A stretch of DNA of 64,000 nt from Fulvivirga sp. M361 (GTDB lineage: Bacteria > Bacteroidota > Bacteroidia > Cytophagales > Cyclobacteriaceae): contig NZ_VKDC01000005.1 of assembly GCF_007097395.1 (NCBI RefSeq), positions 463,813 through 527,812 of the forward strand, in the 5' to 3' direction. The notes under the pieces were generated by a model. It was not told the origin of the DNA. It worked only from the letters and a program-made list of their open reading frames with translations, and ran no database searches. Position 1 is the stretch's first letter. Each line of letters begins with the position of its first letter. The position numbers and the translations under genes are program-made. Positions 4,811 to 17,340 of this stretch are shown one piece after another.

Positions 4811-5995
4811 ATGAATTTCAATCATACCACCTTTCTAAAAAACATAGCTCAAACCACAGCGTCGCCGATGCTACTCGATATTGAGAAAGCTGAAGGCATC
4901 TATTTGTATGCCCCGAACGGAAAAAAATACATGGACCTGATCTCGGGTGTAGCTGTCAGTAACATTGGTCATAGGCACCCTAGAGTTATTAAAGCCATTA
5001 AAGATCAATTGGATAAACACCTTCATGTAATGGTTTATGGTGAATATGTGCAATCTTCTCCAAACCTGCTGGCTGAAAAACTGACCGGTTTATTACCAAA
5101 AGAACTTAGCTGCTGTTACTTCACTAATAGTGGTACAGAAGCCATTGAAGGTGCATTGAAGCTGGCTAAAAGATATACAGGTCGTACACAGATTATCTCC
5201 TGTGAAAGAGCATATCATGGAAGTACACATGGTGCTCTAAGTATATCGGGCAATGAGTCGAAGAAACAGGCGTTCCGCCCATTACTGCCAGATGTGAAGT
5301 TTATGCGTTTTAATGTAGTCGAAGACCTGAACATGATTACCGATGAAACAGCCTGCGTGATCATAGAGCCTGTGCAAGGTGATGCCGGTGTACGAATACC
5401 CTCTAAAAACTATCTCAAATTGCTGAGGCAAAAATGCAACATGCATGGCGTGCTATTGATATTCGACGAAATTCAAACGGGTATAGGCCGCACAGGCAAA
5501 CTCTTTGCCTTCGAACATTTCAACGTAATTCCGGACATACTTACATCTGCCAAAGCATTAGGAGGAGGCCTGCCTATGGGCACCTTTATTTCATCTTATG
5601 AAATTATGCACCACCTGACACATAACCCGATGCTAGGCCATATTACCACCTTTGGTGGTAACCCTGTGTGTTGTAGCGCTGCACTAGCCACATTGCAGGT
5701 GATAGAAGACGAAAACTTACTGGATCAAGTGGAAAAAAAAGGAAAACTCTTCGAACAATTATTGGTTCATGATAAAATCAAAGAAGTAAGAAGATTAGGT
5801 TTAATGTTTGCCTTTGAATTTGAAACCGAAAATGAAGTCTACCGGATCGTACAAGAGTGTATGACCCATGGTGTAATTTGCTTTTGGTTTCTCTCTTGCC
5901 CTAACAGCTTTAGGATAGCTCCGCCCCTGACGATCACTGAAGCTGAAATAACAGCAGCCTGTAACATAATTTTGACTGCTGTTGATCAACTTTAA
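4811..5995 (+). CDS. Class III PLP-dependent aminotransferase
   Basis: The 394-residue protein has the fold-type I class III layout: substrate loop near GVAVSNIGHRHP, phosphate-binding NSGTEAIEGALKLA (about residues 106-119), IIEPVQGDAG, FDEIQTGIGRTG, and the PLP lysine in SAKALGGGLPMG (about residue 250). Family members include acetylornithine, ornithine and 4-aminobutyrate aminotransferases, and I cannot choose between them from sequence alone. No arginine, proline or GABA pathway gene lies next to it. Two weak promoter-like matches (around 4734 and 4747) precede it, the second with a TTG 20 bases upstream. It begins at the ATG at 4811. Confidence 0.85.
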   Translation: MNFNHTTFLKNIAQTTASPMLLDIEKAEGIYLYAPNGKKYMDLISGVAVSNIGHRHPRVIKAIKDQLDKHLHVMVYGEYVQSSPNLLAEKLTGLLPKELSCCYFTNSGTEAIEGALKLAKRYTGRTQIISCERAYHGSTHGALSISGNESKKQAFRPLLPDVKFMRFNVVEDLNMITDETACVIIEPVQGDAGVRIPSKNYLKLLRQKCNMHGVLLIFDEIQTGIGRTGKLFAFEHFNVIPDILTSAKALGGGLPMGTFISSYEIMHHLTHNPMLGHITTFGGNPVCCSAALATLQVIEDENLLDQVEKKGKLFEQLLVHDKIKEVRRLGLMFAFEFETENEVYRIVQECMTHGVICFWFLSCPNSFRIAPPLTITEAEITAACNIILTAVDQL

Positions 5996-6001
5996 ATCAA
6001 T

Positions 6002-6181
6002 TCAGGAAAACATAGGGTCTATCCTGTAGCACCTTAAATTATCCACATTCAGAAAAAAGCGGCTTTTATTAAGGAGTTTCATTAGCTTAACGTCCTTTTT
6101 CTTTTCATAAACGCCTATTGACGTCTCATACAGAAGGTTTAGCTTATCATCGTAAATACGATAAGAGTTGATGTTGTTCAT
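6002..6181 (-). CDS. Small hypothetical protein, 59 residues
   Basis: A short open frame on the minus strand runs from an ATG at 6181 to a TGA at 6002-6004. The product is basic and rich in Leu, Asn and Tyr (it starts MNNINSYRIYDDKLNLLYE). An AGGA-like sequence lies a few bases before the ATG. It is convergent with the aminotransferase gene, ending 6 bases from that gene's stop, and fills a gap that is otherwise empty. I do not recognise the family. It could be a real small protein or a chance frame. Confidence 0.4.
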   Translation of the reverse strand: MNNINSYRIYDDKLNLLYETSIGVYEKKKDVKLMKLLNKSRFFLNVDNLRCYRIDPMFS

Positions 6182-6330
6182 GATCCTGAGTTTTTGTTGT
6201 TGTTATTGAGTAGTTCTGATCAATCACATGAAATACAAATACATTATACTACGTAACAAAACGCATACCGAAGTGCACATTCTACTTTTAGGACGAATTA
6301 GAAGGTAGAATAGTTACTATTTCAATAAAA

Positions 6331-6371
6331 ACTGTTCCTTATCGGACACATTTATTCCGAATAAGAACAGT
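6331..6371. promoter_or_regulatory. Inverted repeat upstream of the potassium channel gene
   Basis: A near-perfect 15-base inverted repeat, ACTGTTCCTTATCGG at 6331-6345 and CCGAATAAGAACAGT at 6357-6371, flanks an 11-base loop. It ends 26 bases before the channel start codon. It could be a protein operator or a 5' leader hairpin. It has no T-tract directly after it, so a terminator is less likely. Confidence 0.5.
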
Positions 6372-6397
6372 CTTTCAGTAAATTGCGCTCAATAATC

Positions 6398-7339
6398 ATG
6401 GCTAAACAACGAAAAGCACGCGACCCGGGAACCGGGACACAGTACAATTTCAATGCAAAACGTATCATTAATAAAGATGGCTCTTTCAATGTCAATAAAG
6501 TAGGACTGGGCCAAAACACAAGGAATATCTATCAGTCATTGATAAAAATGACATGGTCACGTTTCCTTTTGGTGGTATTTGCATTTTTATTTGCCGTTAA
6601 TGGTGTTTTCGCCTTGTTATACACCATGGTAGGAGTGGAATATTTAGGTAAAGAGCCTTCGGTTTCACTCTTCGGGCAGTTTCTATATGCCTTCTATTTC
6701 AGTTTCCAGACGTTTACTACTGTAGGCTATGGCATCTATCATCCAATAGGGCACCTGGCAAATATTATTTCGGTAGTAGAATCTGTTTTAGGCTGGATGT
6801 GTTTTGCCTTAATCACTGGTATGTTGTACGGACGCTTTTCTCAGCCTTCAGCCAGATTGCTCTACTCTAAGAAAGCCATCATTTCGACCTACAAGAATAA
6901 TATCTCCAGTTTTCAATTCCGAATCGCCAATATGCGTAACAGCTTGTTAATGGAAATGGAGGCTACAGTGCTGCTGATGATAGTGGATAAAACCAAAGGT
7001 TCCTCCTGGAAGCGGGAGTTTATTCCATTATCACTCGAACGGGAGTTTATTTTATTCTTTCCACTCACCTGGACTATTGTACATCCTATTGACGAGAAAA
7101 GTCCGCTTTATCAGAAGTCGCGAAGTGACTTAGAGCAAATGGATATCGAAGTTTTGATCAGGATAAAAGGTTATGACGATACATTTGCTCAAACTGTTCA
7201 CTCGCGTTACAGCTATAAGTCAGATGAAATTATATGGGGTGCCAGATACAACCAGGTCTTTGATGTAGATAATAATGGTGACATCCAGCTCTATTTCGAT
7301 AAAATGCATGATTACGAAAAACTAGATCTTCCTAAATAA
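6398..7339 (+). CDS. Inward-rectifier type potassium channel (KirBac family)
   Basis: The protein forms a tetrameric K+ channel in the inner membrane. It has two transmembrane helices (about residues 55-80 and 122-147) around a pore loop with the selectivity filter TTVGYG (about 107-112), then a cytoplasmic C-terminal half rich in beta strands, as in the Kir regulatory domain. The N-terminus is basic and polar, consistent with the slide helix. I start it at the ATG at 6398 (MAKQRKARDPG); a TTG 15 bases earlier would add five residues. Length (313) agrees with KirBac proteins. It is preceded by a strong inverted repeat and is convergent with the epimerase gene downstream. Confidence 0.88.
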   Translation: MAKQRKARDPGTGTQYNFNAKRIINKDGSFNVNKVGLGQNTRNIYQSLIKMTWSRFLLVVFAFLFAVNGVFALLYTMVGVEYLGKEPSVSLFGQFLYAFYFSFQTFTTVGYGIYHPIGHLANIISVVESVLGWMCFALITGMLYGRFSQPSARLLYSKKAIISTYKNNISSFQFRIANMRNSLLMEMEATVLLMIVDKTKGSSWKREFIPLSLEREFILFFPLTWTIVHPIDEKSPLYQKSRSDLEQMDIEVLIRIKGYDDTFAQTVHSRYSYKSDEIIWGARYNQVFDVDNNGDIQLYFDKMHDYEKLDLPK

Positions 7340-7379
7340 TGTAATATTACGTATACACCATACGTTGTGTACGTGAAAA

Positions 7380-8300
7380 TCAAAAAGAAAAACGCGCAAG
7401 AAAATTTTCAATCTCTTCTTTAAATGACTCTGTGCTGGTAATACCCATTTGCTCTTTAAGCACTTTACTGGGGTTAACCTTTAATTGCCTAAGTTTTAAA
7501 TGCTGATTAACAAAAATAAACTCCAAATCAGGTATAATTTCCTTCAGTACATCCACAATATCCAACACCTCGAGGTCACGATCCACTAAATTATACATCC
7601 CGGTATGGATTTGATTATCGAGTACCTTTTCAAGTGCTCTGGCAGCATGATCAATATGAATGAAAGAGCGATGCTGACGTCCATCACCGTGTATGGTAAT
7701 TTTTTTGCTGAAGTTAGCTTCAAAAACAAACTTGTTGATCACTGCATCGAAACGCATACTACGACTATAACCATAGACATTGCCACATCGGAAAATATAA
7801 GTCTCAAGCTGATCTGCAAGCCGGTTAACATGGTCTTCTGCTCTCAATTTAGAAATGCCATAAAAGGTACGGGGATTAGGTTGATCACTTTCATTTACTG
7901 ATTCCTTTGATGATCCGTACACTCCTGTGCTACTGGTAAAAATAAACTTTTTCACATTGCTTTCCTCTAAAGCATATACCAGCTCAGCGGTGCCCCAATG
8001 GTTTACCTGTTCAAAAAAATGAGGGTCTGTATTTGCAAACGGAGTGGTTACTTTTGCCGCCAGGTGATAGACTACATCGACTTTTTCAAGAAGCTTCTTC
8101 AAATGCCTGGAGTCAAGTAACTCTCCTTTTTCAAAGTGTAGCTTTTTATGTTGTGGAAAGTTATGGCCAATAAAAAAATTATAGTTGGATCGACTTAGGT
8201 TATCATACACGATTACCTGATCTACATCCTCACGTGCCACCAATAGTTTTGTTAGCTCAGTCCCTATGTATCCTGCCCCCCCTGTAATAAGTATATTCAT
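7380..8300 (-). CDS. NAD-dependent epimerase/dehydratase (extended SDR)
   Basis: The N-terminal Rossmann motif TGGAGYIGTEL (about residues 6-16), an acidic residue ending the second strand (VYDNLSRS), the Ser/Thr of FTSSTGVYG and the catalytic YGISK (about residues 148-152) identify an extended short-chain dehydrogenase of the UDP-glucose 4-epimerase/dTDP-glucose dehydratase type. It acts on a nucleotide sugar, but the substrate cannot be read from sequence. It lies 74 bases after cysH on the same strand and may be cotranscribed. Its 3' end is convergent with the channel gene, with a short palindrome (GTAATATTAC at 7341-7350) in the 40-base gap. Confidence 0.85.
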   Translation of the reverse strand: MNILITGGAGYIGTELTKLLVAREDVDQVIVYDNLSRSNYNFFIGHNFPQHKKLHFEKGELLDSRHLKKLLEKVDVVYHLAAKVTTPFANTDPHFFEQVNHWGTAELVYALEESNVKKFIFTSSTGVYGSSKESVNESDQPNPRTFYGISKLRAEDHVNRLADQLETYIFRCGNVYGYSRSMRFDAVINKFVFEANFSKKITIHGDGRQHRSFIHIDHAARALEKVLDNQIHTGMYNLVDRDLEVLDIVDVLKEIIPDLEFIFVNQHLKLRQLKVNPSKVLKEQMGITSTESFKEEIENFLARFSF

Positions 8301-8374
8301 TTTTTGTGTCTATTGCTATTCCTGATCCCTGCCCGTTATATCTAAAGGACAGGCCCATAAAACAAGAATTAAAA

Positions 8375-9037
8375 TCACGATTGCTTTTCTACCAGATCAG
8401 TATGAAGGCCACATTCTACTTTATTCATCCCATACCACCTTGCCTCTCGTTCCATCATATCAGGGTCCACTTTACGTGTGCAAGGCTCACAACCTATACT
8501 TAAGTACCCATTAGATTCCAGCGGATGCTTAGGCAGGTTATATTCTTTTTGATAGCCGTAAATCATTTTAGCATTCCAGTCTAACATCGGATGAAAGCGA
8601 ATACTTCCGTGTGGAGCAGGTTGCTCTACCTTCATTGCCTTACGAACAGCGCTCTGATCTCCACGTACCCCATTTATCCACACATCATGCCGCAGTAAAA
8701 GGCTATCCACCGGCTGAGTTTTATTCAGGTAACAGCAATGGTCAGGGTCAGAAGTAAACAGTAGCCTCCCATCCTGCCCTCTTTGCATAAATTTAGGTAC
8801 ATCAGATTTTAAGTCTACTACCTCTAACCCAAAGGACTGAGCTATCTCATCTTTAAAACGGACTGTTTCAGGGAAATGATACCCGGTATTGATGAATACC
8901 ACAGGTATTTTCGGATCTATTCTACTTAAAATATGTAGTAAAACGAGGCTATGCGATTGAAATGAAGATGTGGTAAAAAGTGCCTTTCCTTCATCCCTAT
9001 ATCTTGTAATGTGCTTTTTTATTTCTTCAAATGACAT
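8375..9037 (-). CDS. cysH: Phosphoadenylyl/adenylyl-sulfate reductase
   Basis: The enzyme reduces activated sulfate (APS or PAPS) to sulfite in assimilatory sulfate reduction. The 220-residue protein has the PP-loop-like start (TTSSFQSHSLVLLH), INTGYHFPET, and the C-terminal catalytic ECGLH with Cys209. It also has the paired cysteines 101-102 (DHCCYLNK) and Cys183/Cys186 (GCEPC), the four ligands of the [4Fe-4S] cluster found in APS-type reductases, so APS is the more likely substrate. No other cys gene is adjacent, and the next gene on the strand is a sugar epimerase. The start is the ATG at 9037. Confidence 0.88.
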   Translation of the reverse strand: MSFEEIKKHITRYRDEGKALFTTSSFQSHSLVLLHILSRIDPKIPVVFINTGYHFPETVRFKDEIAQSFGLEVVDLKSDVPKFMQRGQDGRLLFTSDPDHCCYLNKTQPVDSLLLRHDVWINGVRGDQSAVRKAMKVEQPAPHGSIRFHPMLDWNAKMIYGYQKEYNLPKHPLESNGYLSIGCEPCTRKVDPDMMEREARWYGMNKVECGLHTDLVEKQS

Positions 9038-9159: not shown

Positions 9160-10233
9160 ATGAACCAGCCGATAGCTCCTTTTACCTGTACTCACTCGCC
9201 TAACCTACCTGAATTACTCTTCGACCTGAACTGTACATTGGCTATTAGTACCTATCAGGCAGGCAAAGTGGTGTTTATTAGTTCGAAAGACAGAAAAAAC
9301 CTTGTCCAGTTACCCCGGTCATTCAAAAACCCGATGGGCATAGCATTTAAAGACAATAACCTGGCCATTGCTACGCAAAACGAAGTGATCACTTTGGCAA
9401 ATCATCCCGCCATGGCCCATACTTATCCTAAAAAACCCGGTACGTATGATGGTATTTTTATACCCCGTGCTGTTTATTACACGGGAGATGTTGATATACA
9501 TGACCTGGAATGGGTAAATAACGAGTTGTGGGCAGTGAATACCAGGTTCAGTTGTATAGCCAGGATCAGTGATCAATACAGTTTCGAAAGCATTTGGAAA
9601 CCATATTTTATAACTTCTCTGGCACCTGAAGATCGTTGTCACCTGAATGGGATGGCGACGGAAGGTGGTCGACTCAAATTTGTTTCAGCGTTAGGGAATA
9701 CGGACCAGGCAGAAGGATGGCGCACTCATCGCACGACTGAAGGCATAATCATAGACACGGAAAACCAGGAAATAATAGCAAAAGACCTGGCCATGCCTCA
9801 TTCCCCCAGGGTCTATGAAAACAAGCTATGGGTATTGCTTTCAGCTACTGGCGAACTGGTAGAAATTGACAAAAACAATGGTCGGGTAACTACCCTAAAG
9901 AAATTAGATGGTTTTGTGCGGGGTATGTGTAAATACGGCGATTATTTGTTTATTGGTCTTTCTAAAATTCGTAAAGAAAGCTCTGCCTTTGGCGACCTCC
10001 CCATAGCCAAAAAAGCTGTAGCATGTGGAATTGCGGTTATATATGTACCTCAAATGAGCGTAGTAGGTCATCTGAAATACGAAACAAGTGTTGAAGAGAT
10101 CTACGATGTGAAAATATTACCCCATTTTAAACGTCCCGGCTTATTAAGCCATGAAGGCCCTGAACACCGTATGGCACTCGTCACTCCTGACGGTACCTAT
10201 TGGGCCAAAAACAATTCTACTAGTCATGGATAA
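9160..10233 (+). CDS. TIGR03032/DUF4915-like conserved protein
   Basis: The 357-residue protein begins with FTCTHSPNLPELLFDLNCTL and STYQAGKVV, which I recognise as the opening of the TIGR03032 family of unknown function. The body has recurring short strand pairs (for example GIAFKDNNLAIATQNEV, LEWVNNELWAVNT, PRVYENKLWVLLSATGELVEID), suggesting a beta-propeller. There is no signal peptide, so it is probably cytoplasmic. Its last 8 bases overlap the start of the first ACP gene, so the two are translationally coupled. Its role is unknown; the context points to work on or with carrier-protein-bound intermediates. Confidence 0.75.
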   Translation: MNQPIAPFTCTHSPNLPELLFDLNCTLAISTYQAGKVVFISSKDRKNLVQLPRSFKNPMGIAFKDNNLAIATQNEVITLANHPAMAHTYPKKPGTYDGIFIPRAVYYTGDVDIHDLEWVNNELWAVNTRFSCIARISDQYSFESIWKPYFITSLAPEDRCHLNGMATEGGRLKFVSALGNTDQAEGWRTHRTTEGIIIDTENQEIIAKDLAMPHSPRVYENKLWVLLSATGELVEIDKNNGRVTTLKKLDGFVRGMCKYGDYLFIGLSKIRKESSAFGDLPIAKKAVACGIAVIYVPQMSVVGHLKYETSVEEIYDVKILPHFKRPGLLSHEGPEHRMALVTPDGTYWAKNNSTSHG

Positions 10234-10468
10234 CGCACAGGAAATAGTAACTTTTATGAAAGCTCTGGCATCTGAAGAATTAAGAACTTCAGCCAATGAA
10301 ATAGATGAAAATGCCACATTTCACGAATTGGGTTTTGACTCTATCAGTAGTATCTACCTATTAGAAAAACTTGAAAAAAAATACGAAATAGAACTAAGCC
10401 CGCTTTATTTCTGGGACTTCCCTACCATTGCATTATTGAGTGAACAGGTGAAAAAAGAAATAAAATGA
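10226..10468 (+). CDS. Acyl carrier protein 1 (phosphopantetheine-binding)
   Basis: This is an 80-residue free-standing carrier protein. It has the phosphopantetheine attachment motif LGFDSIS with Ser39, then a helix, and the C-terminal FWDFPTIALLSEQV pattern common in polyketide/peptide synthase carrier domains rather than in the AcpP of fatty acid synthesis. I start it at the ATG at 10226, which overlaps the upstream gene by 8 bases; a longer frame begins at 10151 but would add an unlikely 25-residue extension inside the previous gene. It overlaps the P450 start by 4 bases (ATGA). It probably presents a thioester-bound acyl or aminoacyl group to neighbouring enzymes. Confidence 0.85.
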   Translation: MDNAQEIVTFMKALASEELRTSANEIDENATFHELGFDSISSIYLLEKLEKKYEIELSPLYFWDFPTIALLSEQVKKEIK

Positions 10469-11676
10469 ACACTTCACTCTGGAATCCACTTGATACAAAA
10501 AACATCTCGGACCCTTACCCAATGTATGCGAGACTAAGAAAGGAGCAGCCCGTATACAAGGCCCAGACCGGTGAGTGGATCATCACCAAATACGAGGATG
10601 TGAAAAGTCTTTTAAAAAACAAAGATTTCATCTCAGGCAACAAGATGGATTGGGTAAAAAAAGGAATTGAATATTTTAATAATAAAGACCTGGATCTATC
10701 TGCCATCGGCGAAGCCATAAACTCTTTCTTACTTTTTCTTAACGGCGATCAACATCTCCAGGCAAGACGTTTGATAACACGCGCCTGGGATGATCGGGAA
10801 GTAGATGATATTATAGACAGTAATATATCACATTTACTCCATTGCGTGAAGGGCAACAAAGAATTCGATCTTATCGAAAAATTTGCACAGCCACTGCCCG
10901 CCATGACCATTTCAAAGATCATGGGTTTACCTATGGAAGACTACGAAATGTTAAGGGCGCAAGGTAACCATTTGCTAAAGGTGCTTGACTTATACCTCAC
11001 CTTAAAAGATATGGTAGAAATTGAGCGATCAGCACATTTTCTGGTGGATTATTTTGGACAACATATTACAAGAAAAAGACAGCATCCTGAAAATGATCTG
11101 ACCAGTAAGATCATAAAACTAAATGAAGAAGGGCCGCAGGTTGTTTCAGATCGGGCTCTTACATCATTATGCCTTTTTCTTTTCCTTGCTGGCGAGGAGA
11201 CCACCGTTAGTTTGATCGGTAATGGTATGCTCAATCTCTTCAGACATCAGGACCAGCTCCAATTACTAACGAATGACCAAAACCTGATGGCCGGTGCAAT
11301 AGAAGAACTTTTACGTTATGATTCCCCGGTACATGTAGTAGGTAGGATCGCCTCAAAAAACACGCTCTTCAAGGGGTATGAGATTAAAAAAGGAGAGATC
11401 TGTACTTTATGCCTCGCCAGCGCAAACAGAGATGAAGACACCTATGACCAGGCGGCTCAATTCAACATTCAAAGGGACCCTAACCGGCACCTAGCCTTTG
11501 GCAATGGCATACACTTTTGCCTGGGTGACTGGCTGGCCAAAAGGCAGGGAGCCCTGGCATTTAGTTCACTTATAAAGTTAAACCTGGGCTTAACTGACTC
11601 TACCGTTAATTCTATTGAGTGGAACAAAAATTTATCCATCAGGAGCTTAAAACGTCTGAATGTAAAAATGAATTAA
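10465..11676 (+). CDS. Cytochrome P450
   Basis: The 403-residue soluble bacterial P450 shows the I-helix oxygen-activation motif LAGEETT (about residues 241-247), the K-helix ExxR pair (Glu281/Arg284 in EELLRYDSP), and the heme loop FGNGIHFCLG with Cys352 as the thiolate ligand. It oxidises an organic substrate and needs external ferredoxin-type electron donors, none of which are encoded nearby. The 4-base overlap with the ACP gene suggests the substrate may be carried by that ACP, as known for P450 BioI and for carrier-protein-dependent P450s of peptide synthesis. This coupling is inference. Its stop overlaps that of the convergent GNAT-like gene by 3 bases or so. Confidence 0.92.
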   Translation: MNTSLWNPLDTKNISDPYPMYARLRKEQPVYKAQTGEWIITKYEDVKSLLKNKDFISGNKMDWVKKGIEYFNNKDLDLSAIGEAINSFLLFLNGDQHLQARRLITRAWDDREVDDIIDSNISHLLHCVKGNKEFDLIEKFAQPLPAMTISKIMGLPMEDYEMLRAQGNHLLKVLDLYLTLKDMVEIERSAHFLVDYFGQHITRKRQHPENDLTSKIIKLNEEGPQVVSDRALTSLCLFLFLAGEETTVSLIGNGMLNLFRHQDQLQLLTNDQNLMAGAIEELLRYDSPVHVVGRIASKNTLFKGYEIKKGEICTLCLASANRDEDTYDQAAQFNIQRDPNRHLAFGNGIHFCLGDWLAKRQGALAFSSLIKLNLGLTDSTVNSIEWNKNLSIRSLKRLNVKMN

Positions 11677-12167
11677 ATTCGTGCTCCCTTAAAATACCTT
11701 ACCCGTATGTGACTGCCGGCATTACTTACACCTATAAATGTGAATTTTGTAGATGCCCACACCATCTCCTTTCTGTATTTTTTAAGGTGCTCATTTTCAA
11801 CTAATGTAATAAGACCTATACAATCGGTCTTTCCTTCACTCCATAGGTACTCTAACTGTTGAATGGTTGTTACTCCCATTTTATCCGCAAGCCCCGGATA
11901 ACGTACCTCAGGACTTATCAGTATCCTATAGTTAAAAAAGTAATTATGGTTAAGTCTGCGGATCAAAGTTCTTTCAGCAGTAGTAATGGCGATAATCTCC
12001 CCGGTAGGTGACCGGGCTGTCAATGCCACGTACTGAGACCTTCTGTCAAAATCAAAAGCTTTGGGGTCGACATTCATTCGATGCCAGAAGTTGATAACCT
12101 CAGATTTCGCATCTGATTTATCCATGCACCATTCAAAATAAACATCCTGTTGCTTAATTTTGGCCAT
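11673..12167 (-). CDS. GNAT-like acyltransferase, paralogue 1
   Basis: The 164-residue protein has a weak GNAT pattern: a central strand pair (VALTARSPTGEIIAITTAE), a strand YRILISPEVRYPGLADK in the place of the acyl-CoA loop, then a helix and the strand CIGLITLVENEHLKKY. The usual RxxGxG/A loop is degenerate. It is homologous to the protein at 12449-12979: both end with RV, an aromatic or Arg residue, YFKGA, a basic residue and Ile, and both have a NxHLKK block. The ATG at 12167 lies 2 bases from the ATG of the divergent ACP gene; a TTG at 12170 would start one codon earlier. FeeM-type N-acyl amino acid synthases are GNAT relatives that use acyl-ACP, which would suit the context. Substrate unknown. 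Confidence 0.65.
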   Translation of the reverse strand: MAKIKQQDVYFEWCMDKSDAKSEVINFWHRMNVDPKAFDFDRRSQYVALTARSPTGEIIAITTAERTLIRRLNHNYFFNYRILISPEVRYPGLADKMGVTTIQQLEYLWSEGKTDCIGLITLVENEHLKKYRKEMVWASTKFTFIGVSNAGSHIRVRYFKGARI

Positions 12168-12169
12168 CA

Positions 12170-12436
12170 ATGAAAGTTATGCAAAAAGTAACAAAGGAGT
12201 ATCTTGTTGAATGGATAAAGAAAGAAATCTCTCATGAAACAGGAATAGAGGTTCCACTGGTAGATGTTCATACCGAACTTATCAATTTCAGAATAGATTC
12301 CATACAAACCGGAGCCATATTACAAAAATTGGAAAAGGTGCTCAATCTCGAGCTGGGCATCTTAATGTTTTGGGACTACCCTACCATTGATAAATTAACT
12401 GATTATTTAATAGAAGAAATAAACAAAAAGAGCTAA
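12170..12436 (+). CDS. Acyl carrier protein 2 (phosphopantetheine-binding)
   Basis: This is an 88-residue carrier protein with the attachment site RIDSIQTGAI (Ser44) and the C-terminal block MFWDYPTIDKLTDYL, closely parallel to ACP1. The glycine normally two residues before the DS pair is replaced by arginine (FRIDS instead of LGFDS), unusual but not disabling since the serine is present. It starts 2 bases from the start codon of the divergent GNAT-like gene, and an internal ATG at 12179 is an alternative start. It ends 12 bases before the convergent second GNAT-like gene. It is probably a dedicated carrier for one of the two GNAT-like enzymes (inference). Confidence 0.82.
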   Translation: MKVMQKVTKEYLVEWIKKEISHETGIEVPLVDVHTELINFRIDSIQTGAILQKLEKVLNLELGILMFWDYPTIDKLTDYLIEEINKKS

Positions 12437-12448
12437 ACCCTCAACAGG

Positions 12449-12979
12449 TTAAATTTTGGCTCCTTTAAAATAGTACACTCTCATAGGGTCTCCTTTAGGG
12501 GAATCACCAATGTACATCATACCTGTATCCGGCCAGATCGCATGGTTCCATTTTTTCAAATGATCATTTTGAGCCACCGCTAAAATCCCCTTTACTGCAG
12601 TTTTATTATATTCCTCCTCTAAGAAATCCCGGGTTTTTACTAAAAGCTTAACATCAAGTGCCGGAGCGCGATAATTATCATCAATATAGCACCGGTATAC
12701 ATAAAATGAATTATTCAAAATAGGAAGATCTTGTAAAAATACCGTAGACACTCCGATCACTCTTTCTCTTTCCAAAATAGCATAGACTACCTGATCAAGC
12801 CGGTCTCTTATGGTTACCTTATCCAAGATATTTTTATTTAACCATAAATCGGCAATTTTCTCACGTAAACTTACATCATGAGTCTGCCAACAATTAACAA
12901 ATTTTATATTTTCAATGCTTCTCACTACATTTATACATTGGGTTGTGGTGTTGAGTGTAAGAAATTTATGAATTTTCAA
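12449..12979 (-). CDS. GNAT-like acyltransferase, paralogue 2
   Basis: The 176-residue protein is a paralogue of the one at 11673-12167, with matching central strand (YRCYIDDNYRAPALDVKLL), the NDHLKKW block and the C-terminal VYYFKGAKI. As there, the GNAT acyl-donor loop is degenerate. The frame opens at a TTG at 12979, with a stop codon shortly upstream and no ATG in the N-terminal part, so a non-ATG start is needed. That TTG is 5 bases from the ATG of the large divergent surface-protein gene. Function unknown; a role with ACP2, its convergent neighbour, is a reasonable guess. Confidence 0.65.
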   Translation of the reverse strand: MKIHKFLTLNTTTQCINVVRSIENIKFVNCWQTHDVSLREKIADLWLNKNILDKVTIRDRLDQVVYAILERERVIGVSTVFLQDLPILNNSFYVYRCYIDDNYRAPALDVKLLVKTRDFLEEEYNKTAVKGILAVAQNDHLKKWNHAIWPDTGMMYIGDSPKGDPMRVYYFKGAKI

Positions 12980-12984
12980 CCGTT

Positions 12985-15900
12985 ATGTCATTAGTTATGT
13001 CCCCCAATACCAAAGTTTTGTATGCAAATGCATATCGTAAGTACAAAAAATTTCACTTACGATACAAAAAAAGCATTTCTACGGGTCTTTTTAGTCGCTA
13101 TTCTCAAAAGAAGCAAAGGCTGATCCTGGAGAGAATAGCAAAGCTCAAGAGACGCCTGGAAGATCTAAAACTTCAGCTGAAGTTAGGAGTAGCTGCGGGA
13201 GCATTATCAATAATGACTTCTGTGGGTTCTGCTCAGGCTCAACAAATTGGTCCTTTTGTACGAGAAGATAGTAAAAACCCACTGTCATCCCCTCTGCGAA
13301 GCTTTAATGTTGGGAGCCCTGCCATTGTAGACATAGATGGTGATGGTGATCTGGATGTTTTTGTCGGAAACAGGTTTGGAAGGATTGATTTTCTGAGAAA
13401 TGATGGCAATCCGGACAGTCCGGAATACACCTCGGTGTTCGGAACCGTAAACCCATTGGATGGTATCGACCAGGGACATTTTGCAACCCCTCATTTTGCC
13501 GATCTGGATGGTGACGATGATTTTGACCTGATACTGGGTGATTCAACCCAAACTACTAATAACGTTTTCTATTTTGAAAACACCGGGGACAAAACAAACC
13601 CTGTTTTCGAAACCTCCCCCACCACCGGGATTGTTGATAATATTTCTTCAGACAAATACAACGCCCATCCTGTCTTTGTAGACATTGACAATGACGGGGA
13701 CCTGGACATTGTTGTGGGGACAAACGGCGCACTTAGTCTTTGGAAAAACAGTGACGCTGACGATGGTATAATAGGAAATAACCCTGCATTCTCAAAAGAA
13801 CCTGACACAAGCAATCCGTTAAATTTTGGCACAGACATAATTGGAAGTATTGCAGCTCCGGATTTTCGTGATCTGGATGATGACGGTGACCTCGATCTCA
13901 TCCTGGGAGGTGAAAATGGGGAGATAAAATATTTTCAGAATGATGGCCCCGTCAGCAACCCGGCTTTTACTCAACTTACGGGCAGCAGCAATCCATTTGA
14001 CGGCTTATATTTTGGTGAAAAGAGCTCTCCTGAATTTGGCGATCTGGATGATGACGGAGACTTAGACATGTTCGTTGGAACAGACCTATCCAGACCTTTG
14101 TCTTATGCGGAAAATGTCGGAACTGCCTCCAACCCTGTATTTCAACCTCAACTAGGCCCTGTTGGAGGAATATTCGTAAACCACCGTTCTGCCCCTGAGT
14201 TCGCAGACCTTGATAATGACGGAGATATGGATCTGATCATTGGCGGTAAATACAGTTTTGCACGTGGATCAGGGTTCCTTAGATATTATGAAAATATCGG
14301 AAATCAAAAATTCCTGGAAAAAAGAGATAGTGATAACCCTTTTAATGATCTAACAGATAGTAATTATCAGGTGCCTGAGTTGGTGGACATTGATGATGAC
14401 GATGACCTCGATCTTTTGCTCGGGCTTGAAAATGACTTAGTGCTTTATTTGAATGAGGGGACCCCGGAGTCACCACAGTTCAATGCAACGTTCAGCAATG
14501 AATTTACACTTCCCAGCAGTGTTACAAGGTTTGCGCCAACTGTTTCAAAAGTGGATGAAGATGATGACTATGATGTAGTAGTGGGGCACTCCCAAATCAC
14601 TTTAGATAACTTAATATATTACAGGAACGAAGGTGACCCTACGACATCAAATTTTGTACAGGAGACTTCACCAGGCACCTTCGATTTTGGAAATGTGAGT
14701 AATTTCCCTGTCCCTGAATTCGTAGATATTGATCACGATGGTGAAGATGAAATATTCGTAGGCCTTAGTGGGGGAGATTTCCGCTTTTATGAAAAAAATG
14801 GTTTAGAATCATTTACAGCCCTATTCTCTGTAGATAACCCATTGAATGCCCAGGACGCCGGAAGTGACGCAAATCCAGCCTTTGCAGATTTAGACGAGGA
14901 CGGGGACCTGGATGCTTTTGTGGGTGAATATAACGGCAATATCATATTCTACGAAAATCAAAATGATCCACCGGAAGTATTTAGTAATCTGAATATGCCC
15001 ATTAGCTATGAAGAAGGTAGTGCCCCAGTAAAATTAGATACAGATTTAAGTATTTCCGACAGAGACAATGACGTTATCATTGAGGCCCAGTTTATCATTA
15101 GTAACAATTTTCAACCCGGAGCGGACGTACTGGGTTTTGATCCCGGTACTACCGGCATAAACGGTGACTATGATGCTGACAATGGCATTCTCTTTTTATT
15201 TGGATCAGCCAACATTGGCGATTATGAAGATGTACTACGCAGTGTTTCCTTCGAAAATACCAGTGATAATCCGGGAGCTTCCACCCGTACTATTGAGATT
15301 TTTGCTATCGATTTCGATAATACAAATCCGGAAGTTACTGCTGTTATTGATGTAGATGTAATTCCTGTTAATGACCCACCCAGTATTACGGTCAACAGAG
15401 ATATTATCATCTTTACGGAAGGAGGACCAGCTGTAAATATAGCCCCGGAAGCCTTAGTAGAAGATCCCGACGACGCTACACTGACAAATGCCATCGTTAG
15501 AATAACTGAAAATTTCGCTTCAGGCCAGGACCAACTGGACTTTACAGATCAAAATGGCATCACTGGTAATTACAACCTTTTCACAGGTGAATTAAGATTA
15601 AATGGCACTGCTAGCGTAGAAGAATACCAGGCGGCCCTCCGGAGCGTGGCGTTCAGGAATACTTCATCCGTACCATCTCCGGGTATTCGGCAAATAACCT
15701 ATGTGGTAAGCGACGGCACAGCTACCAGTTCTGTAGAAACAAAATCACTAGATATACAAGAGGCGAATACACGACCATTTTTAAGTTCGGATAATTTCGG
15801 AACATCTGTCAATTACAATACCGGTGAAGCCCCGGTAACAATAGATAGCGACTTATCTGTGATAGACAATGACTCTGAAAATATGGCGCAGCTCACCGTC

Positions 15901-16428
15901 AGCATTCAGGAATATGTAACCGGGGATTCACTCGATGTAGATGTTCCTGTGGGAATGACAAAAAACTTTGATACCGGTACAGGTATATTGACGATAGCAG
16001 GAAGTAGAGATCAGTCTGTTTACTCATCAATTGCCAGCTCTGTCACTTTTAAAACATCCAATGGCACATCTTCGCGTTTGATTGAATTTGTAGTCAATGA
16101 CGGTGATTTAAATAGTGACCCTTATAGCCGTAGCATCAGTATTGAAGGAACGCCTGTAGGTGAAATAGAAGTATTCAATGCCATATCCCCAAACAATGGT
16201 GACGACAAAAATGATTTTTTAGAAATAGCAGGCATTACCGATCCGAACCAGGTGAAGATCTACAACCGTTGGGGCGACCTGGTGTATGAAACGGACAATT
16301 ACGACAATGTGACCAACCGTTTTGAAGGAATTTCTGACGGCGGTGAAGAACTACCTTCAGGCACCTATTTCTATAAGATCAATACAGACACACAAGAATT
16401 GACCGGTTATTTAGTGATAAAAAAATAA
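12985..16428 (+). CDS. Large secreted FG-GAP/VCBS and cadherin-like surface protein with type IX (type B) sorting domain
   Basis: The 1147-residue protein is built in blocks. Residues 1-66 are a very basic leader, followed by a hydrophobic segment with likely cleavage after AQA near residue 85. Residues about 115-650 hold ten Asp-rich FG-GAP/VCBS calcium-binding repeats of the form DxDxDGDxD plus a hydrophobic strand. Residues about 660-1070 hold three cadherin-like repeats (motifs such as LRSVSFENTS). The last 80 residues match the gliding motility-associated C-terminal domain (SPNNGDDKNDFLEI, KIYNRWGDLVYE, PSGTYFYKI), the type B signal for type IX secretion. It is therefore exported to the cell surface. 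The PorP/SprF-like gene follows 3 bases later and is its likely partner. Confidence 0.88.
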   Translation: MSLVMSPNTKVLYANAYRKYKKFHLRYKKSISTGLFSRYSQKKQRLILERIAKLKRRLEDLKLQLKLGVAAGALSIMTSVGSAQAQQIGPFVREDSKNPLSSPLRSFNVGSPAIVDIDGDGDLDVFVGNRFGRIDFLRNDGNPDSPEYTSVFGTVNPLDGIDQGHFATPHFADLDGDDDFDLILGDSTQTTNNVFYFENTGDKTNPVFETSPTTGIVDNISSDKYNAHPVFVDIDNDGDLDIVVGTNGALSLWKNSDADDGIIGNNPAFSKEPDTSNPLNFGTDIIGSIAAPDFRDLDDDGDLDLILGGENGEIKYFQNDGPVSNPAFTQLTGSSNPFDGLYFGEKSSPEFGDLDDDGDLDMFVGTDLSRPLSYAENVGTASNPVFQPQLGPVGGIFVNHRSAPEFADLDNDGDMDLIIGGKYSFARGSGFLRYYENIGNQKFLEKRDSDNPFNDLTDSNYQVPELVDIDDDDDLDLLLGLENDLVLYLNEGTPESPQFNATFSNEFTLPSSVTRFAPTVSKVDEDDDYDVVVGHSQITLDNLIYYRNEGDPTTSNFVQETSPGTFDFGNVSNFPVPEFVDIDHDGEDEIFVGLSGGDFRFYEKNGLESFTALFSVDNPLNAQDAGSDANPAFADLDEDGDLDAFVGEYNGNIIFYENQNDPPEVFSNLNMPISYEEGSAPVKLDTDLSISDRDNDVIIEAQFIISNNFQPGADVLGFDPGTTGINGDYDADNGILFLFGSANIGDYEDVLRSVSFENTSDNPGASTRTIEIFAIDFDNTNPEVTAVIDVDVIPVNDPPSITVNRDIIIFTEGGPAVNIAPEALVEDPDDATLTNAIVRITENFASGQDQLDFTDQNGITGNYNLFTGELRLNGTASVEEYQAALRSVAFRNTSSVPSPGIRQITYVVSDGTATSSVETKSLDIQEANTRPFLSSDNFGTSVNYNTGEAPVTIDSDLSVIDNDSENMAQLTVSIQEYVTGDSLDVDVPVGMTKNFDTGTGILTIAGSRDQSVYSSIASSVTFKTSNGTSSRLIEFVVNDGDLNSDPYSRSISIEGTPVGEIEVFNAISPNNGDDKNDFLEIAGITDPNQVKIYNRWGDLVYETDNYDNVTNRFEGISDGGEELPSGTYFYKINTDTQELTGYLVIKK

Positions 16429-16431
16429 GGC

Positions 16432-17340
16432 ATGAAAAAACTTTATCTCCTCTTCCTATCAGGCTTGGTCTTTTGCACCCAGGGATATGCACAACAAGAT
16501 CCACTCTATGCTCAGTATATCAACAATCCCCTGGTGATCAACCCTGCTTATACTGGGATCAATAATGTATTAAACGCTTCACTCAGCTATAGAAAACAGT
16601 GGTCAGGATTTGATGAAGCACCGTCCACCACTGCTTTTACAGCTCACACGTCCTTAGTTGACAATAAAATAGGTGGCGGAGTTATGTTGGTAAGAGATCA
16701 GGTGGGTTCTACCATTAACACACAATTTAACGCTACATACGCTTATAAAATAGATTTCGGTGACAAGGTAGTATCTTTTGGATTACAAACAGGAGTGTTA
16801 AACCTTAAAGAGGATAACAATGAGCTTAACCCAAGAGATACTGACGACCCCGTGTTTGCCGGAGAGCAGACGGTAACCAAATTTAATTTTGGGGCAGGAA
16901 TAGCAATCAAGGGTGAGGATTTCTACCTTGGTCTATCTGTGCCCCGATTAGTAAACAGTCAGGCTGAATTCGAGCAGCTGGAAGCACAGGTGTATCAAAG
17001 GCATTTTTATTTCGCTGCCGGATATGTTTATCATTTTGGAACAGGTCTTTCGTTAAAAGCTGCTACATTGTTAAGGGGTGTTTCAGGCTCCCCATTATCA
17101 GTAGATTACAATGTAAATTTGATACTACAGGATCGGTTTTATGCAGGCATCCTTTCCCGAAATTTCCAGACATATGGCTTGCTTGCCCAGGTAAACATTA
17201 ACGAAAACTTCAGGTTCGGTTATGTCTTTGAAATACCTACGGACAAGTCTGTAGGCTCAAATTTCAATAGCCATGAACTCACGTTGACCATTGACTTTGC
17301 CGTATTAGACTTTCACTTTTTAAATGAACGCTACTTCTGA
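16432..17340 (+). CDS. PorP/SprF-family type IX secretion outer membrane protein
   Basis: The 302-residue protein has a signal peptide ending near AQQ (residues 1-21) and the family opening QQDPLYAQYINNPLVINPAYTG, followed by alternating beta-barrel strands and the terminal strand pattern of outer membrane proteins. PorP/SprF proteins are needed for secretion or anchoring of type B CTD cargo (SprF for SprB in Flavobacterium). The gene begins 3 bases after the large surface protein, which carries such a CTD, so the two form a cargo/partner pair. The assignment of family is firm and the specific pairing is inferred from adjacency. Confidence 0.9.
   Translation: MKKLYLLFLSGLVFCTQGYAQQDPLYAQYINNPLVINPAYTGINNVLNASLSYRKQWSGFDEAPSTTAFTAHTSLVDNKIGGGVMLVRDQVGSTINTQFNATYAYKIDFGDKVVSFGLQTGVLNLKEDNNELNPRDTDDPVFAGEQTVTKFNFGAGIAIKGEDFYLGLSVPRLVNSQAEFEQLEAQVYQRHFYFAAGYVYHFGTGLSLKAATLLRGVSGSPLSVDYNVNLILQDRFYAGILSRNFQTYGLLAQVNINENFRFGYVFEIPTDKSVGSNFNSHELTLTIDFAVLDFHFLNERYF

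Follow-up and report, generated by a model that had tools for sequence, protein, structure and literature searches.

A conserved cassette of carrier proteins, a cytochrome P450 and GNAT-fold transferases linked to a type IX surface protein in Fulvivirga: a candidate protein-acylation module

The window analyzed here, a 64,000-nucleotide stretch of the Fulvivirga sp. M361 genome (contig NZ_VKDC01000005.1, positions 463,813 to 527,812 of the forward strand), contains a cassette of six small genes (9160-12979) encoding a TIGR03032/DUF4915 protein, two free-standing acyl carrier proteins (ACP1 and ACP2), a cytochrome P450 and two GNAT-like paralogs (GNATa and GNATb), followed by a gene for a large FG-GAP repeat surface protein. 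We propose, at roughly even chances, that this cassette is dedicated to acylating one large surface protein in the cytoplasm by means of carrier proteins. The proposal builds on the gene set and its intact motifs, on conserved linkage, on the pairing of carrier proteins with GNATs, on the sorting domain and extended leader of the surface protein, and on the modeled folds of GNATa and the TIGR03032 protein.

Conservation of the cassette

Conservation was assessed across 145 genomes, that of strain M361 included, with genera as grouped by the search tool. A GNAT profile seeded by 10 of its 14 GNAT-bearing genomes matched 14 of the 145, again including our own, and in all 14 the GNAT is accompanied by an ACP and a P450 (hereafter the triad). 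Every triad genome also carries TIGR03032 and a gene encoding the extended N-terminal leader described below (14/14); 11 of them had seeded the leader profile, and both genes are likewise present in the three that had not (G071, G094 and G095). The leader gene lies within the fetched locus of the triad in 12 of the 14 genomes. Ten genomes of the genus retain, whole or in part, the order TIGR03032-ACP-P450-GNAT-FG-GAP-PorP, while G025 and G071, from other genera, contain the same components in a different order, and a Cyclobacteriaceae metagenome-assembled genome (L149) reads TIGR03032-P450-ACP-GNAT-GNAT-leader protein, followed by a PorP-like gene identified by eye. The triad of G095 sits on a 3.4 kb contig, too short for its neighborhood to be judged. 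The TIGR03032 gene of G004 (L030, 10472-11550) is split into two overlapping frames, representing either a broken gene or a sequence error.

The conserved order led us to reject a chance gene set. A preliminary description of this DNA had listed the six genes, which are present as claimed with both GNATs on the minus strand, and had expected them to be conserved together, as they are in most relatives having GNATs. When the phylum was sampled evenly, 3 of 395 genomes had the GNAT: our own, G387, which encodes a TIGR03032-GNAT fusion with a GT41 gene close by, and G336, where the match is weak.

Carrier proteins, P450 and GNAT-fold transferases

The two carrier proteins match PF00550 with 51.7 and 40.0 bits (cut-off 20.8), and the Asp-Ser attachment site, intact in both, is invariant in 16/16 aligned ACPs. 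The P450 matches PF00067 (85.5 bits, cut-off 22.8), and its ExxR motif and Cys ligand are invariant in all 14 aligned P450s; the preliminary description had noted intact serine sites and complete P450 motifs in the window. The closest solved P450s by sequence in the PDB are PksS (200.6 bits) and BioI (199.4 bits), and the BioI structure entries 3ejb, 3ejd and 3eje contain an ACP chain as well. Several polyketide carrier proteins match the ACP profile well among solved structures, and the best-scoring named chains are polyketide-type carriers, ranking above peptidyl carriers. The type of carrier does not by itself decide what is carried, and some P450s oxidize carrier-bound amino acids; the ACPs might accordingly carry an amino acid that the P450 hydroxylates and the GNATs attach to a protein. 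We regard this aminoacyl scheme as highly improbable in view of the polyketide-type ranking and of Pfam and NCBIfam scans that found no adenylation domain in the cassette proteins, the other genes of the compared loci having been only partly scanned.

GNATa and GNATb, noted earlier as paralogs, share 29% identity, and the structure model of GNATa (predicted local distance difference test score 88.6) displays a clear GNAT fold, bearing out for this protein the fold previously suggested. Neither window GNAT matches a Pfam GNAT family above its cut-off, nor does either match the HlyC family in Pfam; a distant family member, L204, does pass PF00583. No column of the GNAT alignment has His or Asp in at least 11 of 14 sequences, His reaching at most 7/14. 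Searches for a FeeM-type synthase returned no match in Pfam or NCBIfam and none among the 50 structure matches listed; HlyC-like and FeeM-like folds were not among the 50 matches listed in the GNATa structure searches, which is uninformative either way. Relatives of GNATa were found in none of 28 stretches in a scan of named genomes, and a search for GNATb in plasmids gave none. We also considered GNATa as a transposase and rejected the assignment, since the PF12762 match is weak (16.7 bits, below the cut-off of 27) and the model has a GNAT fold.

Phylogenetic inference points to a pairing of ACP1 with GNATa and of ACP2 with GNATb. The GNATb clade comprises G000, G003, G008 and G011 (bootstrap 83) and the ACP2 clade G000, G003, G008 and G025 (bootstrap 76), in trees computed without the ACP2 of G011 and without the cut GNAT of G025. 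ACP2 adjoins GNATb in G000, G003, G008 and G011, where ACP2 was found by translation, and in G025, at a contig end, ACP2 lies beside a GNAT piece that resembles GNATb more closely. The linked duplication implied by these patterns is what suggests the pairing. The second unit of G003 includes a second P450, which those of G000, G008 and G011 lack; the whole triad was probably duplicated and the second P450 lost afterwards. The linked duplication of ACP2 and GNATb is our best evidence that the ACPs serve as donors for the GNATs.

The main rival explanation is a small-molecule pathway, in which the GNATs would release a P450-oxidized, ACP-bound acyl chain onto an amine (an amino acid or a polyamine) to form an N-acyl signal or lipid in FeeM-like fashion, the surface protein being merely a neighbor. 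GNATs can take small amines as acceptors, and FeeM-type N-acyl amino acid synthases combine a GNAT-related fold with an acyl-ACP substrate. Several of the closest solved P450s are small-molecule pathway enzymes, the ACP profile matches polyketide carriers, and the triad of G094 lies apart from any leader-type surface-protein gene. The loci shared by triad and leader gene (12/14), the presence of leader and TIGR03032 in every triad genome and the failure to find a FeeM-type match in Pfam or NCBIfam argue the other way, and the cassette neighbors suggest a protein client; we therefore consider a small-molecule product possible but unlikely. Of the minimal carrier-protein pathway put forward in the preliminary description, the conserved module with a PksS/BioI-like P450 and GNAT-fold transferases stands, whereas a free-standing small pathway ending at position 12979 is an incomplete account, because the neighborhood ties the set to a leader-bearing type IX surface protein and to TIGR03032. 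Its FeeM parallel retains the shared fold, with otherwise no positive support for a small-molecule product.

The surface protein, its leader and TIGR03032

The surface protein matches the Pfam families FG-GAP_3 (100.1 bits, cut-off 26.9) and CHU_C (77.6 bits, cut-off 27), and among the NCBIfam sorting domains it passes TIGR04183 (29.3 vs. 23) and falls just under the cut-off of TIGR04131 (34.9 vs. 35); from its C-terminal sorting domain it is predicted to be type IX secreted. Its N terminus bears a leader of about 60 basic residues followed by a hydrophobic stretch with an AQAQQ end. The leader approximates the pattern LY..TL.KYKKF..R..K...G.F...S.KK...I.RI.KLK.RL..LK.QLK, with 13 invariant columns in an alignment of eleven related leaders, and searches of Pfam and NCBIfam at E 0.01 returned no family for the window leader, the ESPR and KxYKxGKxW extended signal peptides included. 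A second, divergent leader type (WVKLQR.YR...) adjoins a divergent TIGR03032 copy in L118 (3107-9166) and L119 (511-3333); FG-GAP repeats occur in the L118 protein, whose leader gives a sub-cut-off DUF2721 match.

The TIGR03032 protein of the window exceeds the TIGR03032 and DUF4915 cut-offs (377.6 vs. 251.5 bits and 397.4 vs. 35 bits, respectively). Its structure model is a propeller that aligns best to YWTD propellers, and on that account, together with an E value of only 0.18, an assignment as glutaminyl cyclase was rejected.

TIGR03032 and leader proteins tend to occur in the same genomes. The leader profile, whose 11 seed genomes were picked by their GNATs, matches 24 of the 145 genomes and TIGR03032 matches 32, 30 of them above its cut-off. 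TIGR03032 occurs in 23/24 leader genomes and 9/121 others (p = 2e-18), in 12/13 vs. 9/121 once the 11 seed genomes are removed (p = 8e-11), and in 11/12 leader genera vs. 7/104 others when counted by genus (p = 5e-10); the p values are inflated by shared ancestry, the genus count being less affected. In the genus, leader and TIGR03032 occur together in 12 genomes and are both absent from three.

The association extends to gene neighborhoods. Of 572 TIGR03032 loci confirmed in a scan of named genomes we analyzed the best 80, and this selection is consequently biased toward near relatives. FG-GAP/leader genes make up 42 of 153 adjacent genes (31/78 downstream, 11/75 upstream), compared with 3/492 genes at least four genes away; a directly adjacent gene of this kind is present at 42 of the 80 loci and absent from 38. 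In the 64 Bacteroidota and Spirochaetota loci, a signal segment preceded by at least 40 residues with at least 12 Lys or Arg was found in 29/35 same-strand downstream proteins of at least 200 aa with a detectable signal segment (proteins lacking one were dropped, and one of the 29, the GT41 protein of L144, is a false positive), compared with 35/288 other proteins, a group that includes leader proteins at other positions. Under a stricter rule, 44 of these 64 loci have an FG-GAP/leader protein within two genes, the leader occurring in 4/173 distant proteins of at least 300 aa; the 20 loci that fail include several contig ends, as well as L140 and L154, where the protein lies beyond the cassette.

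TIGR03032 in other phyla and with other enzymes

Six of 15 TIGR03032 plasmid records were inspected, and in all six a large protein annotated as a surface, repeat or autotransporter protein (choice-of-anchor Q twice, Ig-like, IPTL-CTERM, autotransporter twice) adjoins TIGR03032 or, in one case, lies one gene off; the Bacteroidota-type leader was not seen in these six partners. GT41 genes are adjacent to TIGR03032 in 6/80 loci and absent from the 492 far genes. Individual loci, scanned because they looked promising and hence providing examples rather than rates, reveal a range of enzymes. An OGT-like GT41 protein with tetratricopeptide repeats (TPR-GT41) lies beside or is fused to TIGR03032, by Pfam, in L071 (two), L078, L129 and L086. 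DUF4915 and GNAT are fused into single proteins in L130 (7751-9886), L135 (7971-9965) and L086 (3308-4771), which hints at a shared client for propeller and transferase. TIGR03032 is accompanied by a glycosyltransferase-9 domain, barely above its cut-off, in L137, by an Asp-hydroxylase and a sulfotransferase in a single protein in L136, and by a two-GNAT protein in L169.

On the basis of these associations we suggest, in a claim that could as readily fail as hold, that TIGR03032/DUF4915 is the hallmark of an undescribed class of systems, spread across phyla, that modify large exported proteins in the cytoplasm. The core of this class would be the propeller protein and the extended basic leader (the latter in Bacteroidota and some Spirochaetota), combined with swappable enzymes: OGT-like GT41, fused GNATs, Asp-hydroxylase plus sulfotransferase, or the Fulvivirga-type set of carrier proteins, P450 and GNATs, which would add an oxidized acyl group.

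Several further features of TIGR03032 neighborhoods were recorded. By similarity, TPR-GT41 (OGT-like) genes also adjoin TIGR03032 in L144, L147, L156, L157, L204 and L216. In L144 and L157 the mature part of the leader-bearing neighbor starts approximately with GSEF.VNT, and this motif also starts the cyanobacterial TIGR03032 partners of L209, L212 and L214. Planctomycete partners (L205, L208, L210, L211 and L217, each at +1 gene), some of them longer than 3,000 aa and truncated where the locus stops, have a basic N-terminal stretch ending in a motif close to D(P/T)LE(E/Q)R(Q/T)LL(S/T), which is perhaps a leader equivalent. In G025, a CotH kinase-like gene (L031, 8109-9371) follows the TIGR03032/FG-GAP pair and is a possible further surface-protein modifier.

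Gene layout of the window locus

The features of the window locus are listed in Table 1. Gene ends within the cassette overlap or almost abut. The ACP1 reading frame is open from 10151, with relatives favoring a start at 10226, and that of GNATb is open to a TTG at 12979, with a GTG at 12925 the likelier start. Upstream of the cassette (4811-9037) lie genes for a class III aminotransferase, an inward-rectifier K channel, an NAD-epimerase and a CysH-like reductase. The epimerase and reductase occupy the same site in the cassette-bearing G001, G002, G004, G009 and G012 and also in the cassette-free G010 and G013; the CysH-like gene was rejected as a functional part because it stays put in the latter two.

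Table 1. Features of the cassette and of the adjoining surface-protein genes, in window coordinates
Feature	Position	Strand	Remarks
TIGR03032/DUF4915 protein	9160..10233	+	No signal peptide on reading by eye; beta-propeller model
ACP1, free-standing acyl carrier protein	10226..10468	+	Overlaps the TIGR03032 end
Cytochrome P450	10465..11676	+	4-base overlap with the ACP1 stop
GNATa, GNAT-fold transferase	11673..12170	-	Structure model
ACP2, second carrier protein	12170..12436	+	Partner of GNATb
GNATb, GNATa paralog	12449..12925	-	
FG-GAP repeat surface protein, probable client	12985..16428	+	CHU_C type IX sorting domain, residues 1061-1144
Extended basic N-terminal leader and hydrophobic signal segment	12997..13245	+	AQAQQ at end
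PorP/SprF type IX secretion membrane protein	16432..17340	+	228.2 bits, cut-off 22.3

Proposed function and comparison with known systems

In the acylation model, acyl chains drawn from general metabolism would be loaded by a presumptive loading enzyme onto ACP1 and ACP2, and the P450 would oxidize the chain on ACP1 in the manner of its relative BioI, whose substrate chain is ACP-bound. GNATa, working with ACP1, and GNATb, working with ACP2, would then transfer these putative acyl groups to the candidate client, the FG-GAP preprotein, or to its leader, at a Lys, the N terminus or another nucleophile. Judging from its fold and associations, the TIGR03032 protein may bind the preprotein and present it or keep it unfolded, and may itself be an enzyme; the basic leader may delay or tag the preprotein in the cytoplasm. 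Export would follow through Sec and the type IX system, to which the sorting domain and the PorP/SprF partner gene belong, with PorP/SprF presumably mediating surface attachment after modification.

The closest functional parallels are HlyC, ApxIC and CdiC, small ACP-dependent enzymes that acylate a large exported protein (PMC8510554; PMC8339906). ApxIC is described there as having a GNAT-like fold (PMC8339906), and CdiC as attaching 3-hydroxydecanoate to CdiA in class IV contact-dependent inhibition (PMC8510554), a hydroxylated chain that resembles the proposed P450-oxidized one. The cassette differs from these systems in lacking a conserved His and in having dedicated ACPs, a P450 and a presumed client exported by the type IX system. 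Since there is neither a conserved His/Asp column nor a family match, the cassette does not belong to the HlyC/CdiC family; the best reading, by analogy, is that it would work like HlyC/CdiC acylation without being a family member. A dedicated ACP gene linked to an acylated secreted protein is also found in the type III system of IacP and SipB, where IacP serves SipB acylation (PMC5279801); there, acylation depends on a Cys of SipB and the export route is another, and no P450 or GNAT partner is named in the abstract of that source. Cytoplasmic modification of a big adhesin before export is likewise described for HMW1C/HMW1 and the serine-rich repeat adhesins (PMC8151025; PMC7948813), although these add sugar rather than acyl groups and are a closer parallel to the GT41 variant of the TIGR03032 systems. 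Some type V adhesins are reported to receive their glycans in the cytoplasm, ahead of export, and about 10% of type V proteins to have an ESPR-extended signal sequence of more than 50 residues (PMC8151025). BioI and PksS, the closest solved P450s, are named for biotin-type and polyketide pathways and not for a surface protein.

Several observations weigh against the acylation model. TIGR03032 is missing from the fetched cassette locus of G011 and G012, the sole copy of G008 is on a different contig, and G094 carries its ACP-P450-GNAT triad by itself, its TIGR03032 and leader genes being located on other contigs. Two congeneric genomes that lack the cassette, G010 and G013, still have the FG-GAP/PorP pair in the corresponding position, and the cassette is therefore dispensable for the client. 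An ACP or P450 lies within four genes of TIGR03032 in only 3/80 loci (L140, L149 and L154), two of them from Fulvivirga, and L149 departs from the pairing in having a single ACP for two GNATs. The catalytic His of HlyC is not present in the GNATs, and the leader is missing from cyanobacterial, several proteobacterial and some other clients. Client residues track with the cassette in 8 of 1582 columns, with no convincing target, in a comparison of 10 cassette-bearing with only 2 cassette-free clients.

Some of these points favor a scheme in which TIGR03032 and the surface protein form a chaperone/client pair and the triad modifies another envelope target, be it lipid A, a lipoprotein or an anchor partner aiding attachment. 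The pairing of TIGR03032 with the leader is more common than the triad, the client persists without the triad in G010 and G013, and G011 and G012 combine triad and client with no TIGR03032 at the locus. Nevertheless, among the 145 genomes the triad occurs only where leader and TIGR03032 also occur (14/14), and TIGR03032 neighbors at other loci include known protein modifiers such as GT41; we hold a separate target to be doubtful.

Implications

A literature search that excluded most subscription papers found TIGR03032, DUF4915 and PF16261 named in no paper, and no paper in which as many as four of type IX secretion, ACP, P450, acyltransferase and FG-GAP occur together. If correct, surface-protein acylation by this cassette would provide a first role for TIGR03032/DUF4915, a family of unknown function according to Pfam, and an instance of protein acylation that uses its own carrier proteins and P450. 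It would also mean that type IX secreted surface proteins can be decorated with acyl groups, a new way of decorating outer proteins.

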